From Bacteroidota bacterium (GTDB lineage: Bacteria; Bacteroidota; Ignavibacteria; Kryptoniales; JAKASW01), in the NCBI GenBank assembly GCA_021845665.1, contig JAJZVO010000013.1:17823-81822 (forward strand): a DNA stretch of 64,000 nt, read 5' to 3'. Of this stretch, positions 60,070 through 64,000 are shown one piece after another. The translations under genes were made by a program, and so were the position numbers. The notes beneath the pieces are model-generated. The model did no database searches. It was given only the letters and a program-made list of their open reading frames with translations, and was not told the DNA's origin. The first letter of the stretch is position 1, and every line of letters starts with the position of its first letter.

Positions 60070-60165
60070 GTAAAAGCGCTTCGGCTATTCCTGCACACGG
60101 AGGACGCTGACGGGATACGGGTTCCGACAGATAGAGTGAAACGTATTCTCATTAGCGCTGATGTT

Positions 60166-60193
60166 GAGGCGTGCTCCGCCGTGCTCACGCCTC
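60166..60193. other. Perfect 8-bp GC hairpin after the giant kinase gene
   Basis: GAGGCGTG (60166-60173) and CACGCCTC (60186-60193) pair perfectly around a 12-base loop, 97 bases beyond the kinase stop. The following bases are TTCGAC, not a T-run, so an intrinsic terminator is only possible. It marks the border between housekeeping chromosome and the accessory end of the window. Confidence 0.45.
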
Positions 60194-60249
60194 TTCGACA
60201 GAACGCGTCGGCAGCTTCCGAACGTGATTTTGCTTTGTGGGAGGGTTTG

Positions 60250-60285
60250 AAATGAACCGCCAAGACCGCGAAGAAACGCAAAGCC
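60250..60285. repeat. Degenerate GAACCGCCAAGACCGC-type intergenic repeat
   Basis: TGAACCGCCAAGACCGC, followed by GAAGAAACGCAAAG, is a worn copy of the short-period CCGCCAAGACGCCAAG sequence commonly scattered in environmental bacterial genomes. It lies in the gene-free 310 bases after the giant kinase. No function is implied. Confidence 0.4.
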
Positions 60286-60379
60286 CTTCACACCCAAAAT
60301 AGCCATTGCGGCGGAACATGGGGTTGGAGCGGGCTGATAGCGCCGCGCTTCTTGACATGTTCCATGAAAGGATATAAAT

Positions 60380-60890
60380 TCAGATAACGTCCGGCGGCAG
60401 TCTTGCCGGGCGAAGTGCCTTAGCAGGACGGAAAGAGATAGCTAACCTGATGCCGGCAAGGTGAGTGCCGGCGAACATCTTCTACCAAATCAAACACATT
60501 GTTCGTACAACGGGCTTATTGCCCATTCTTTCGCAGAGCGATCGATAAGGCTCTTTGAGGGAACCATTCCCTGAGAGGGCCGTTGAAGCCGGAACGGGTT
60601 CAGTGCAACGAGGAAACTCACTGCCTGAGCCAGTGGTAATGCATGGATGGTTTCGCCAGTCGATGAATGCCAGCACGTGGAGCATGATGAAGGAAATGCT
60701 GAGCATCTTTTTTCAGGATGCCACAAGCAAAGCCGGTGGTAGTTCAGTGTCGCCATTTACGATGATGAACGGCGGCATGAGTGTCGCAGCAAGAGTCCGG
60801 GCGTGAGCCTTATCCGCTCGAGTCCGGGTTTGGAGATAGAAAAGCGCAGCTCTGCCGTAAGGTAACTGCGGTGCGACAAATGTGCAAAGT
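60380..60890 (+). ncRNA. Candidate large structured RNA
   Basis: About 500 bases without a credible gene are dense in short perfect stems. CGTCCGGC/GCCGGGCG (60386-60410) is followed by TTAGC/GCTAA, GCCGGC/GCCGGC (around 60452-60472), a GAG-GAAA-CTC tetraloop hairpin inside CAGTG/CACTG (around 60602-60624), CACTG/CAGTG (around 60620-60637), and a helix closing GTCCGG with CCGGGT (around 60796-60835) that contains GAGC/GCTC. GAAA tetraloops and nested stems are typical of large ribozymes such as group II introns, or of large ornate RNAs. No reverse transcriptase or intron-boundary pair was found, so the class stays open. Strand is assumed from the direction of the downstream genes. Confidence 0.35.
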
Positions 60891-60902
60891 AAGGAGTTAT
60901 GA

Positions 60903-61255
60903 ATGGGTTTTCCTAATCGTGTAAGCGCCAAGCTCCCGCAGGAGGATGTCGGCGTAGTACTGGGCGGATTCGCAACCGCCAGAGGTAAGATGCCCTTTCT
61001 CATCGAGCTGACCAAGGAGCAGCGGAAGCGGCTTGTAAGAATCTATGAGAGTGCCCAGCCGTGGTGGGAGAAGGTGCTGCAGTTCGTGACGCAGCATCCC
61101 GAGATCGTCCCTCCGATGCACTGGCTGTCTACCAACTGGGGCAGAACAGCGGTCTGAGGGGAGAAGGATTGGAAGACCTGATGAACGAGTTCGGACAATG
61201 TTTCGTGCGTAAGTCCGGGAAGTCCGTCTCTGCCGTCCAACCCGCGCGGAAGTAG
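60903..61255 (+). pseudogene. Decayed small conserved protein gene
   Basis: AAGGAGTT precedes ATG 60903. The first ~70 residues (RVSAKLPQEDVGVVLGGFAT; KMPFLIELTKEQRKRL; FVTQHPEIVPPM) resemble the N-terminal part of a widespread small protein family of about 125-160 residues, known to me only as hypothetical. The frame then hits a stop at 61157. A segment resembling the family's C-terminal end (GEGLEDLMNEFGQCFVRKSG, then polar tail) is present in another frame up to 61255, with the middle part apparently missing. This looks like an internal deletion plus frameshift. The family resemblance is from memory, so the diagnosis is moderate. Confidence 0.5.
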
Positions 61256-61630
61256 GCCGAAAAGGAGCCTTAAGAGGGTTCCGGAAGTGACTCGATCCTC
61301 CCCGAGCAAAAACAGTGGCTTTGAGCCAAAAATGATTACGAGGTGATTGCCGGAAGTCACGGCGTGATCATGGGAGATCAGGATGGTGATCAATTTCGGT
61401 CAGGTGGTAACCGGCAGAGAAACAGGATGGAATCAACGGAGACCGAATGTGAGTCGATGGAGGCTGAAGTTCGACCGGTTGAGGCCGGGCGGTGACCATC
61501 GGATACCGGCACGTAACCGGTGGTGGTTACCCGGCATCTTTCAGAGGGGAGGGCGTGTTCGGCGCGCGCCAGGGATTCCGGAATTTGGACGGATTGGAGT
61601 CAAGATAAACAAAGAGAGCGAGGTGGGACA
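61256..61630. other. Gene-free stretch upstream of the recombinase
   Basis: No credible gene is seen in these 375 bases. Short structures include TGGCT-TTG-AGCCA (61317-61329), a perfect GTAACC-GGTGGT-GGTTAC hairpin (around 61513-61530), and a purine-rich run around 61425-61475. AGGTGGG at 61621-61627 is the ribosome binding site of the recombinase gene. The recombinase promoter was not identified. Confidence 0.45.
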
Positions 61631-62539
61631 ATGAACGTGGCGACGGAGGGATCGGGAGGAGATGCCGGTTCGGGAAAAGGGCCGGGGCTCTTCGAGGTAT
61701 TGAGGCGGGAGTTGAAATTGAGGAATTATTCCAACAAGACATTTAAAGCTTACAGGAGTCATCTGCGAGAGTTTACGAAGTACATTTCGCCGAAGCATCC
61801 GAGAGAGCTGAACGAGCAAGACGTTCGCGACTACCTTTTGCACCTCATCCATGATAGGAATTTCACCTCAGGCACGATAGGTCAGGTGATCAGTGCGATA
61901 AGGTTTCTGTATGTAGAGCTTTACAAGCGCCCCTTTGCAATTGCAGGGATTCCCCGGCCATTGAAGGAGCGGAAATTGCCGGTAGTTTTATCGCTCGATG
62001 AAGTGAAGAGCATATTTGCAGCATTGGGAAATGAAAAGCATAGAATAATGCTGATGCTGGTATACTCTGCCGGGCTCAGGGTAGGCGAGGTTGTGCGATT
62101 GAAGCCGGAAGATATCGACAGCGACCGTATGATGATTCACATTCATAGCGGTAAAGGCAAGAAGGACAGGTACACAGTGCTTTCCGGGGTAGTATTGGAA
62201 GGATTGCGCGATTATTGGGTTGCGTATCATCCGAAGAGATGGCTATTCGAAGGGCAGACTGAAGGGAAGCCATATTCGATAAGGAGTGCGGAGCGTGTTT
62301 TTGAGAAAGCAGCGGCGAAGGCCGGGATAATCAAAGATGTGTCGATACATTCGCTCAGGCATGCATTCGCTACGCATTTGCTCGAACAGGGGACTGATAT
62401 TAAATTCATCCAGGAATTGCTAGGCCATCAAAGCGTGAGGACGACGGAGATATACACGCATGTTAGCAGGAAGGAGATCGGTCAGATACGGAGTCCGATA
62501 GAGTCTATAATACAGCCGAAAGGTACAAAAACGAAATAA
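61631..62539 (+). CDS. Tyrosine recombinase next to a cassette array (integron-integrase-like, without the IntI patch)
   Basis: This is a 302-residue site-specific recombinase. ATG 61631 follows AGGTGGG and gives a normal SAM-like N-terminal DNA-binding domain (about 18-105, LRRELKLRNYSNKTFKAYRS). The catalytic set is complete: R150 in YSAGLRVGEVV, K in GKGKKDR (about 175), H240 and R243 in HSLRHAFATH, H266 in LLGHQSVRTT and the nucleophile Y275 in EIYTH. Between the lysine and HxxR there are only about 62 residues, as in XerC/D; classical IntI proteins have some 30 or more extra residues here that bind folded attC. The tail RSPIESI resembles the end of IntI. It is followed after 55 bases by an attI-like crossover point and two attC sites, with the gene reading toward them. 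Confidence 0.85.
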   Translation: MNVATEGSGGDAGSGKGPGLFEVLRRELKLRNYSNKTFKAYRSHLREFTKYISPKHPRELNEQDVRDYLLHLIHDRNFTSGTIGQVISAIRFLYVELYKRPFAIAGIPRPLKERKLPVVLSLDEVKSIFAALGNEKHRIMLMLVYSAGLRVGEVVRLKPEDIDSDRMMIHIHSGKGKKDRYTVLSGVVLEGLRDYWVAYHPKRWLFEGQTEGKPYSIRSAERVFEKAAAKAGIIKDVSIHSLRHAFATHLLEQGTDIKFIQELLGHQSVRTTEIYTHVSRKEIGQIRSPIESIIQPKGTKTK

Positions 62540-62600
62540 ATGTTCGTTTTTTATACCACAAGTTGCGTAAAAACGCAATACGTTGTTCAAGGAGTTAGGC
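62540..62600 (+). mobile_element. attI-like site
   Basis: Between the recombinase stop and the first cassette lies GTTAGGC (62594-62600), which fits the integron core site GTTRRRY. Strand exchange would fall between 62594 and 62595. Upstream is a perfect small hairpin TTGCGT-AAAA-ACGCAA (62563-62578) that could be an additional recombinase-binding arm or a leftover terminator. TTAGGC is complementary to the R'' box of the first cassette's attC (GCCTAAC), as expected for a cassette inserted at attI. Confidence 0.7.
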
Positions 62601-62658
62601 GCAACGCGTGGCTACTGACACTTAACAACTAACTCTCAACTTGAAAGGAGTACAAACA

Positions 62659-63093
62659 ATGAAGCGAAGCTCAACCAAATTGATTCACATTACCTCGTTC
62701 CTCACTTTTGTGGCACTCGCAGTAAGCGGATGTTCCTGGAGCGTTGGACAGTTCACGATGATAACAACCCGGAGTTACGACCCCAACACCAAGTATGTAT
62801 TCGTTGGGCGTTATACGGGGGAAGATGTCCGCGCTTTTGGACGCCCTAGTCTTGCTACCGCTGTCAATAGAGCTCTGGAAGCTGGTAAAGGTACTTACTT
62901 GGCGAACGTTGACATTAGGTGGTACAGCGGAATTTCAGCGGGGTATGAAGTAACGGGCGACGTTTACGCACCCGCCACCCAAAGCGACCTCATCAATCCG
63001 AATGTGAAATTGTACCACCTAAAGACACTGAATGGCAAGATAGTGTTGCAAAGTGGCAACACGACCTTAATGGTACAGGGAAACACTCATTGA
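62659..63093 (+). CDS. Cassette-borne lipoprotein of unknown function
   Basis: ATG 62659, 8 bases after AAAGGAG, gives 144 residues; an in-frame TTG at 62641 overlaps the ribosome binding site and is unlikely. The N-terminus is a lipoprotein signal (MKRSSTKLIH, hydrophobic core, VSGC with C25), so the product should be lipid-anchored in the envelope. The mature part is about 120 residues, beta-rich in appearance (TKYVFVGRYTGEDV; YEVTGDVYAP; TTLMVQGN), with no recognised domain. It is the only gene of cassette 1. Cassette genes of sedentary integrons are often secreted or membrane proteins without homologues, which fits. Confidence 0.8.
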   Translation: MKRSSTKLIHITSFLTFVALAVSGCSWSVGQFTMITTRSYDPNTKYVFVGRYTGEDVRAFGRPSLATAVNRALEAGKGTYLANVDIRWYSGISAGYEVTGDVYAPATQSDLINPNVKLYHLKTLNGKIVLQSGNTTLMVQGNTH

Positions 63094-63133
63094 GTCGTGT
63101 AGGCCTTCATGTCAAAACTCAACCACGCGCTGC

Positions 63134-63254
63134 GCCTAACACGCCGGACAAAGACGCTCGTGATTTGTATATGTGGAGCTCGCTTCATGGCGCGCTCATT
63201 ATGGTACCCCAACAAAGGGTGCGCGCCACGACTTTGTCCGGCAGGACGTTATCT
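63134..63254 (+). mobile_element. attC site of cassette 1
   Basis: R'' is GCCTAAC (63134-63140) and L'' is CGCCGGACAAAG (63142-63153). An inner inverted repeat pairs TGGCGCGC (63188-63195) with GCGCGCCA (63222-63229). L' is CTTTGTCCGGC (63232-63242), and the crossover G is 63248 followed by TTATCT of the next cassette. The arms pair over most of the site, giving the long imperfect hairpin of attC. Total about 115 bases. It starts 40 bases after the lipoprotein stop. Confidence 0.8.
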
Positions 63255-63292
63255 GTCATGCGCGGCGTAGCTAAACCAGAAGGATAATCTGA

Positions 63293-63643
63293 ATGACATT
63301 CGTGCTCATTTCAATATTATCTCTCGTCCCCTTCAGAAGACTCGGTTGGTTCCTATCCAAGAACATCCTTTACTGGGTCCCAAACATATTTACTGTGCCC
63401 GCCTGCCTTTTGTGGGGAGTATCTATCGCCTATTTACTTCATCTCCTGATATTGTGGCAAGACCCAGGCCTGGTCGTGAAAATCATTTTCGGTTACCTCT
63501 TAGCCGCCTACCTATCGATACCCGACTACGGCCTATTTGACGAAAGCACCATGCCAGCCGATGCTGTTATAAAGAACGCGACCATATCGTTCTCGTCACT
63601 CGGTTCCTATATAGTGACTTCAATCATCTTAGCATTCGCATAA
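63293..63643 (+). CDS. Cassette-borne small membrane protein
   Basis: ATG 63293 follows AAGGATAA and opens a 116-residue product with three or four hydrophobic segments (about 2-12, 27-56, 60-74 and 97-116) and few charges. Hence it is an integral inner-membrane protein. No family is recognised. It fills cassette 2 between its start at 63249 and its attC, which begins 37 bases after the stop. Expression would depend on read-through from upstream or an internal promoter, which was not identified. Confidence 0.72.
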   Translation: MTFVLISILSLVPFRRLGWFLSKNILYWVPNIFTVPACLLWGVSIAYLLHLLILWQDPGLVVKIIFGYLLAAYLSIPDYGLFDESTMPADAVIKNATISFSSLGSYIVTSIILAFA

Positions 63644-63679
63644 AGGGGGTCTCCACTATACCATGCGCCGCGCACGAAC

Positions 63680-63795
63680 AGATAACATGCGGAAGAAAGA
63701 CGCTCCTCATTATATATGCAAGGTGGTCGCTTCATGGCGCGCACATTATAGCCCCCAAGGAGCGCGCCACAACTTTCTTCCGCAACACGTTAAAC
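63680..63795 (+). mobile_element. attC site of cassette 2
   Basis: R'' is AGATAAC (63680-63686), L'' is GCGGAAGAAAG (63689-63699), and the inner stem pairs TGGCGCGC with GCGCGCCA. L' is CTTTCTTCCGC (63773-63783), and the crossover core is GTTAAAC (63789-63795), an exact GTTRRRY. Its inner part is nearly the same as that of the first attC (shared AAAGACGCTC, CGCTTCATGGCGCGC and GCGCGCCAC), as in chromosomal integrons where attC sites are homogeneous. Confidence 0.8.
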
Positions 63796-64000
63796 GTCAT
63801 GGTCGAGGTCGGGATTCATAAGAGGGAGCAAGAACGTCGTCCCGCGAGGCGGAACGCCGAGCGAGTAGGCATCAAAAAAATGGTGGGGACAGAGTTGCGT
63901 AACTACTGAGCAAAGTGTCGAAGAGAGGTGAGTGGCGATCAGGGGAAGATGAAAGGGAAGAAGGAATTCTGAGATAGGAGAAGGATTGAGGCACCTGAAG
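63796..64000. other. Start of a third cassette or array end
   Basis: After the core at 63789 the sequence begins TTAAACGTCATGG, like the start of cassette 2 (TTATCTGTCATGC). No gene with a ribosome binding site opens before the window ends, and the R'' box predicted for this cassette (GTTTAAC) is not present yet. AGTTGCGTAA at 63894-63903 repeats ten bases found in the attI region (62561-62570). Either a long cassette continues or the array ends here. Confidence 0.4.

Follow-up and report, generated by a model that had tools for sequence, protein, structure and literature searches.

The window analysed here is the whole of a 64,000-nucleotide stretch of DNA from a bacterium of the phylum Bacteroidota, and the subject of this text is the system at its 3' end, which consists of a gene for a tyrosine recombinase and the array of attC-type cassettes that follows it. 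A defining trait of the integron platform, the additional domain (or patch) that the integron integrase IntI carries between its catalytic lysine and its HxxR box, is absent from the window enzyme, which is referred to as patchless below. The features of the locus, given by position in the window, are as follows:

61631..62539, + strand, stop codon included: patchless integron-type tyrosine recombinase of 302 residues, with Phage_integrase and SAM_4 domains

62527..62552: outer palindrome AAAAACGAAATAAATGTTCGTTTTTT over the recombinase stop codon, read by eye; a candidate accessory recombinase site

62569..62600, + strand: attI-like insertion site, an imperfect palindrome followed by GTTAGGC (62594-62600), from an alignment of 11 loci

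62595..63248, + strand: cassette 1, with an open reading frame (ORF) at 62659-63093 for a protein of 144 residues, lipoprotein-like by eye

63134..63254, - strand (the bottom strand folds): attC site 1, R'' GCCTAAC and R' GTTATCT; 124.4 bits with R1, a covariance model of the attC sites of the genus in whose training set this site was included

63249..63789, + strand: cassette 2, with an ORF at 63293-63643 for a protein of 116 residues, membrane-like by eye

63680..63795, - strand (the bottom strand folds): attC site 2, R'' AGATAAC and R' GTTAAAC; 105.1 bits with R1, of which it is also a training site

63790..64000, + strand: start of cassette 3, which very likely continues on contig C64

The recombinase gene is complete, as had been noticed in a sequence-only reading of the locus, and all six catalytic positions of its product are intact (R150, K175, H240, R243, H266 and Y275). 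The core GTTAGGC lies 54 bases past its stop codon; the attI-like site is conserved within the genus, and in the 11-locus alignment GTTA is invariant. The sequence-only reading had also described two attC-like hairpins with GTTAGGC and GTTAAAC as cores; both hairpins stand (bottom-strand folding z of -4.53 for site 1 and -5.17 for site 2), but GTTAGGC at 62594 is an attI-type core that opens cassette 1 and lies outside any hairpin. The R'' of the first attC, GCCTAAC, pairs with this GTTAGGC, and the R'' of each window cassette is the exact reverse complement of that cassette's own first bases. A chain detector finds 2 cassettes in the 1.46 kilobases (kb) past the recombinase gene, compared with 0 in ten shuffles, which, together with the folding z values, argues that the cassette structure is not due to chance. 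The proteins of cassettes 1 and 2, the two complete cassettes of the window, have no Pfam or NCBIfam match. The window ends where contig C92 ends, with two cassettes and the start of a third visible; its final 127 bases recur without a mismatch at the beginning of contig C64, whose first attC has R'' GTTTAAC, the partner of the window's GTTAAAC. This identity and the partner boxes make it very likely that the array continues on C64, the first 13.4 kb of which hold 10 more sites by R1, with box matches that break down toward the far end.

One bottom-strand consensus of 31 pairs, with compensatory changes at 22 of the 31, is shared by sixteen attC sites of the genus, taken from four loci. A covariance model, as proposed in the sequence-only reading, recovered such sites in 12 of the 13 genomes of the genus and in none of 7 genomes of the order's other genus (R1, counted at expectation values, E, up to 1e-4). 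In 46 of 77 pairs of adjacent attC sites the variable part of R'' exactly matches the previous R', compared with a mean of 10.9 and a maximum of 21 over 2000 shuffles, and 21 of the 31 mismatches fall in two decayed arrays, L127 (11 of 13 pairs fail) and L128 (10 of 14). Most attC-like sites in the loci surveyed across the phylum (111 of 177) measure 131-134 bases; a Rufibacter plasmid carries a shorter type of about 68 bases, and an 89-base attC at L020:14072-14160 has a very different hairpin and boxes that still chain (GTTGAAC/GTTCAAC in, GTTAGCC/GGCTAAC out).

The interval from K175 to H240 in the window recombinase is 65 residues long, short and patchless as had been claimed, although the earlier estimate of about 62 was too low; it measures 106 residues in all 33 canonical IntI rows and, by the same measure, 68 and 72 in E. 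coli XerC and XerD. The patch is likewise absent from 12 of 12 enzymes of set A, which comprises the recombinases of the window's own genus plus L023, and from 98 of 98 loci of the phylum, with K to H intervals of 61-70. When compared with profile models, as the sequence-only reading had suggested, the window enzyme reaches 223.1 bits with the IntI model TIGR02249, under the cut-off of 265, and the match is split into two stretches that leave profile positions 176-241, the patch region, unmatched. It scores 218.5 bits with NF040815, the archaeal XerA model, whose cut-off of 220 is narrowly exceeded by two relatives, L118 and L132, and about 184 bits with the XerC and XerD models, whose cut-offs are 330-335. 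Some relatives are annotated as 'site-specific tyrosine recombinase/integron integrase' through NF040815. The best sequence match among solved structures is VchIntIA (2a3v), with an alignment again split around the patch. With an AlphaFold2 model (pLDDT 79, pTM 0.59), Foldseek also ranks 2a3v first, and VIA-align places XerA (4a8e) and 2a3v near each other.

A carefully built 70-row tree (50 patchless enzymes, 14 IntI, and 6 XerA, XerC or XerD) joins patchless enzymes and IntI in one clade against the Xer proteins, with support of 100/99; within it the 14 IntI rows group by themselves at 100/100, with the patchless rows outside; a quick tree of 157 rows likewise shows IntI as one group. The 70-row tree leaves both options for IntI, which could branch within a patchless grade or beside it. 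This placement, the outcome of another comparison put forward in the sequence-only reading, indicates that the window enzyme falls outside the known IntI clade and is no stray Xer that came to lie beside an array. Two identities were rejected: XerC, XerD or XerA, in view of scores below all three cut-offs and a position outside the Xer clade, and canonical IntI, in view of a score below the TIGR02249 cut-off, a position outside the IntI clade and the missing patch.

The pairing of recombinase and array, for which the sequence-only reading had proposed a search of related genomes, recurs in relatives. In the window's own genus, the recombinase is detected (E 1e-40) in 9 of 13 genomes, all nine of which carry R1 attC sites, and genome G005 has neither. 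The window genome, G000, which is 95.6% complete, holds no gene above the IntI cut-off. A second relative of the recombinase, 47-54% identical and with a two-piece match, lies within the cassette array of G003 (L020:11804-12597).

Further afield, a Chryseobacterium plasmid encodes a relative of the window recombinase, 46.6% identical, followed on its 3' side by the chain GTTATACG, CGTATAAC, GTTACCTA, TAGGTAAC, GTTGGGAA. Used as a query, this enzyme finds relatives at E 1e-55 in 111 of 395 genomes of the phylum, and 98 patchless loci were fetched and analysed with a detector that pairs a GTT heptamer with an exact reverse complement located 120-4000 bases further on and also requires a hairpin ending in GTT. 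The detector reports 246 cassettes in 803 kb downstream of the gene versus 32 in the 369 kb upstream of it; shuffled sequence gives 16. The first core lies at most 400 bases from the gene at 39 of the 82 loci that have at least 1 kb and, in a fair window of 4 kb, at 28 of 67 loci downstream versus 7 of 89 upstream (p 6e-7). Linked chains of at least two are found at 29 of 98 loci downstream, compared with 2 of 98 upstream and 0 in one shuffle of each, and chains of at least three at 20 loci, 15 of which are in genomes that were searched without an IntI match. When an array is called from a core within 400 bases or from a linked chain of two, 45 of the 98 loci have one, and 41 of these 45 arrays start within 400 bases of the gene. 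Sixteen of the 98 contigs end less than 1 kb past the patchless gene (breaks are seen, for example, at G008:C38, G010:C1, L184, L185 and L219), and arrays may be under-counted because assembly often breaks off directly after this gene. Canonical IntI, for its part, exceeds the cut-off in 84 of 296 sampled genomes of the phylum and is thus common there, so that the two kinds of integrase coexist in Bacteroidota.

The sites themselves also differ from those of canonical integrons, in which, according to a published account (PMC6393395), IntI touches the extrahelical bases of the folded attC and strand choice depends mainly on these bases. In a comparison where site detection was independent of the stem, internal bulges of the L helix were present in 17 of 17 canonical sites of this phylum (8 loci), whereas the L helix had no internal bulge in 21 of 22 sites of the window's genus and 84 of 113 from the phylum, or 105 of 135 patchless sites in total (p 2e-10, a value that counts sites, those of one locus not being independent). 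Counted by locus, bulged sites are the majority at all 8 canonical loci, at none of the 9 from the window's genus and at 7 of the 40 patchless loci from the phylum. A one-sided junction, in which 3 or 4 additional bases separate the R box from the L box, occurs in 20 of 22 own-genus and 97 of 113 phylum sites, and the L-helix mismatches of the phylum set are A/G in 141 cases versus T/C in 27, which makes for wobble pairing in the bottom-strand fold. Predicted stability is higher for the bottom strand in 20 of 22 own-genus and 95 of 113 phylum sites, a figure that cannot be compared with the canonical set, whose strand is arbitrary.

Traces of exchange are seen at cassette boundaries, which were taken as natural end points read from the sequence. 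Window positions 63245-63687, comprising cassette 2 and its boxes, differ by one mismatch from a cassette in the array of genome G002, whose recombinase is 72% identical to that of the window; the similarity begins at R' and stops at R''. Loci L197 and L201 have their first cassette in common at 97.6%, from the attI GTT through the next R' with the hairpin included, and L178 and L250 have in common a cassette body, at 94.4%, that stops at R'' with a different hairpin behind it. Two of the three cassettes common between species at 94% or more (window/L123 and L178/L250) end in this manner, as if bodies moved without their own attC hairpin. On the attI side, among the four related loci L192-L195, and likewise between the two Chryseobacterium plasmids L132 and L264, the flanks agree as far as GTT, or a few bases past it, and then lead into different cassettes. 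In the pairs L022/L032 and L030/L031, otherwise identical attI flanks already differ one base before GTT (A versus C), which may indicate that exchange takes place one base sooner or that repair has occurred. The base that precedes GTT at attI is A at 39 of 61 loci, C at 12, T at 8 and G at 2, and the one that precedes R' at attC is C in 124 of 128 cases.

The best reading of these data, judged from sequence comparison, is that of a patchless integron lineage in Bacteroidota, and the patchless, integron-side recombinase of the window very probably captures and shuffles the attC-flanked cassettes that start 54 bases downstream of its gene. By its logic the window system is an integron whose integrase and sites do not pass two of the tests that define the integrons known so far. 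The sequence-only reading had left a choice between a Xer-type enzyme that runs the cassettes by a different recognition mode and a recombinase that is a bystander. The failure to find a canonical intI in the 95.6% complete G000, the pairing in all nine genomes of the genus that have the recombinase, its recurrence in the phylum and the lack of extrahelical bases in most attC sites lend the first option the better support, although the label 'Xer-type' does not survive as a statement of descent.

In the mechanism that we envisage, the bottom strand of attC would be extruded as a hairpin, the patchless enzyme would bind its R and L helices in double-stranded form, and the cassette would be joined at G|TT to the attI site behind the enzyme's own gene. 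Since extrahelical bases, the points of contact for IntI, are missing from most patchless sites, the enzyme is likely to read strand and orientation from the one-sided junction of 3-4 bases between R and L and, in sites of the phylum type, also from G-T wobble pairs, which favour the bottom strand. The missing extrahelical polarity marks might perhaps also allow exchange at R'', a speculative explanation for the swapped hairpins. The cassettes are co-oriented with the recombinase and may be read from its promoter; promoter-like sites are no more frequent than in shuffles, and no promoter or terminator was shown.

Several observations speak against a patchless integron lineage. Genomes G001, G004 and G009 have 3, 8 and 12 attC sites with no recombinase at E 1e-40, and two of the 13 genomes of the genus, G007 and G008, also hold canonical IntI genes or fragments (G007:C66, G007:C4, G008:C7 and G008:C4), and 9 of 37 checked array genomes of the phylum have both the patchless recombinase and IntI (at most seven scored candidates per genome). 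By the detector, 38 of the 98 phylum loci have no array, among them a subclade of 24 of which 22 are testable, and 15 of the 98 had less than 1.5 kb of sequence. Internal bulges are present in 29 of the 113 phylum patchless sites and predominate at seven loci; the one-sided junction of 3-4 bases is shared by 14 of 17 canonical sites and is no hallmark of patchless ones; a wobble bias of the L helix is not seen in the sites of the window's genus; and the AlphaFold2 model is of moderate quality.

Some of these observations would be accommodated if the recombinase were a bystander beside an array that a canonical IntI built or still moves, either in trans or since lost, and the case for such an origin is strengthened by attC-array contigs without a recombinase match (for example C182 of G003, C3 of G007 and C37 of G002) and by a review according to which such arrays can arise, among other ways, through off-target insertion by an IntI encoded elsewhere (PMC8618304). 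We nevertheless consider it improbable. No IntI over the cut-off was found in the other 11 genomes of the genus, and the sequence retrieved from the neighbourhood of canonical IntI in G007 and G008 (L110-L113) contains no attC site that R1 recognises. In the phylum, of the 37 array genomes that, judged by their handles, also belong to the IntI search, 28, eight of them single-contig, have no IntI match at E 1e-60, in a check that rests on at most seven scored candidates per genome. Moreover, an attI-like site lies behind the patchless gene at locus after locus, and most patchless sites are without the extrahelical bases typical of canonical ones.

A second alternative, for which the chances appear slim, holds that the hairpins are conserved intergenic repeats, spread by homologous and not by site-specific recombination, like the repeats described for the immunity-gene arrays of rAID (recombinase-associated acquired interbacterial defence) in Bacteroidales. 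The first description of rAID is said to be that of Ross et al. in 2019. These elements resemble the window system in combining a predicted tyrosine recombinase with short co-oriented genes and conserved intergenic motifs, as described in PMC12247911. On a Parabacteroides distasonis plasmid (L266), a relative of the patchless enzymes that has 48% identity with the one from Chryseobacterium is followed by Tdi1-type and SMI1/KNR4 immunity genes, an arrangement that looks like a rAID island (L266:3716-8810) and in which no attC box chain was found; the genes of the window cassettes, by contrast, match no Pfam or NCBIfam family. The two common cassette bodies that stop at R'' with a different hairpin behind would also fit dispersed repeats. 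Such repeats, however, have no need of an R'' that matches the start of its own cassette; in addition, divergence at attI starts at GTT, and the common cassette of L197 and L201 takes in its hairpin and stops at the next R'. The third and least credible alternative, that the enzyme is a degenerate IntI minus its patch beside immobile relic arrays, is in keeping with the decay of L127 and L128 and with broken recombinase copies in L032 and L126, but is opposed by the separate IntI clade, by K to H intervals of 61-70 in every patchless row examined, by a dN/dS ratio of 0.12 in both computable pairs (including the window recombinase versus L020), and by a one-mismatch cassette common to species whose enzymes are 72% identical.

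With a patchless integron lineage as the preferred reading, the comparison with known systems is as follows. Canonical integrons (IntI1, IntI2, VchIntIA) share with the window system an attI next to the integrase, attC sites in tandem that carry R''/L''/L'/R' boxes, first cassette bases that match R'', hairpins, a GTT core and a one-sided R/L junction; they differ in having the patch (K to H 106 versus 65) and extrahelical bases, and in forming a separate clade. In the common class 1 layout, an arrangement seen here at L130, the integrase is not co-oriented with the cassettes, unlike that of the window. XerC, XerD and XerA have the short K-HxxR interval, and the window enzyme comes near the NF040815 cut-off; they differ in their own clade, and the window enzyme sits beside attC arrays. 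A CALIN, or attC cluster without an integron integrase, differs from the present arrays in that a conserved recombinase and attI accompany the latter. The window array would nonetheless be filed as a CALIN by searches that demand the patch.

The integrases of an early survey were chosen by the patch (PMC2426708), and a later survey lists it among the defining traits (PMC9668308), so that a patchless lineage would be filed as integrase-less arrays or overlooked. Smyshlyaev et al. (2021), in the part of their text on the integron-like subgroup, regard the insertion as essential to the working of integrons and draw no connection between insertion-less members and attC arrays (PMC8138268). Our literature search found no paper that links patchless integrases to attC arrays, and rAID, together with a survey saying that the insertion is not fully conserved, provides partial precedents. 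The window system is likely to represent a second kind of integron, one that patch-based searches would overlook. If so, cassette recombination through folded single strands would need neither the patch nor extrahelical bases, the origin of integrons would become testable, and the known reach of cassette exchange in Bacteroidota would widen. A wider proposal is ventured tentatively, at slightly less than even confidence: that Bacteroidota hold a second great lineage of integrons, whose patchless integrases read hairpins that have no extrahelical bases, that the patchless form is the older one, with patch and extrahelical bases a later joint invention of the line leading to the known integrons, and that the lineage is a hidden source of mobile genes, including the resistance genes that lie next to such recombinases on plasmids. 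For Riemerella, a report describes uptake, without flanking homology, of a resistance gene whose 140-base 3' region is compared to attC sites (PMC13148043), and a patchless integrase would offer a candidate mechanism for such uptake.

Patchless relatives lie directly upstream of tet(X3) on an Acinetobacter indicus plasmid (L263:4139-6160) and of blaVEB-3 on a Klebsiella michiganensis plasmid (L265:4142-5763). In both, an attI-like GTT core is visible by eye between recombinase and resistance gene, and a box-chain search found no chain behind either gene. In the window, about 1.5 kb (60070-61630) separate a sensor-kinase-like ORF of 1999 residues, so named by eye, from the recombinase, and no listed ORF in this interval exceeds 120 residues except the recombinase's own frame. 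In Mucilaginibacter arboris and a relative, two tandem palindromic motifs of about 29 bases, like AAAAAnCGAAGTACGnATTTTGTATTG, lie between the recombinase and the first cassette (L028:10844-10925 and L029:10806-10879).

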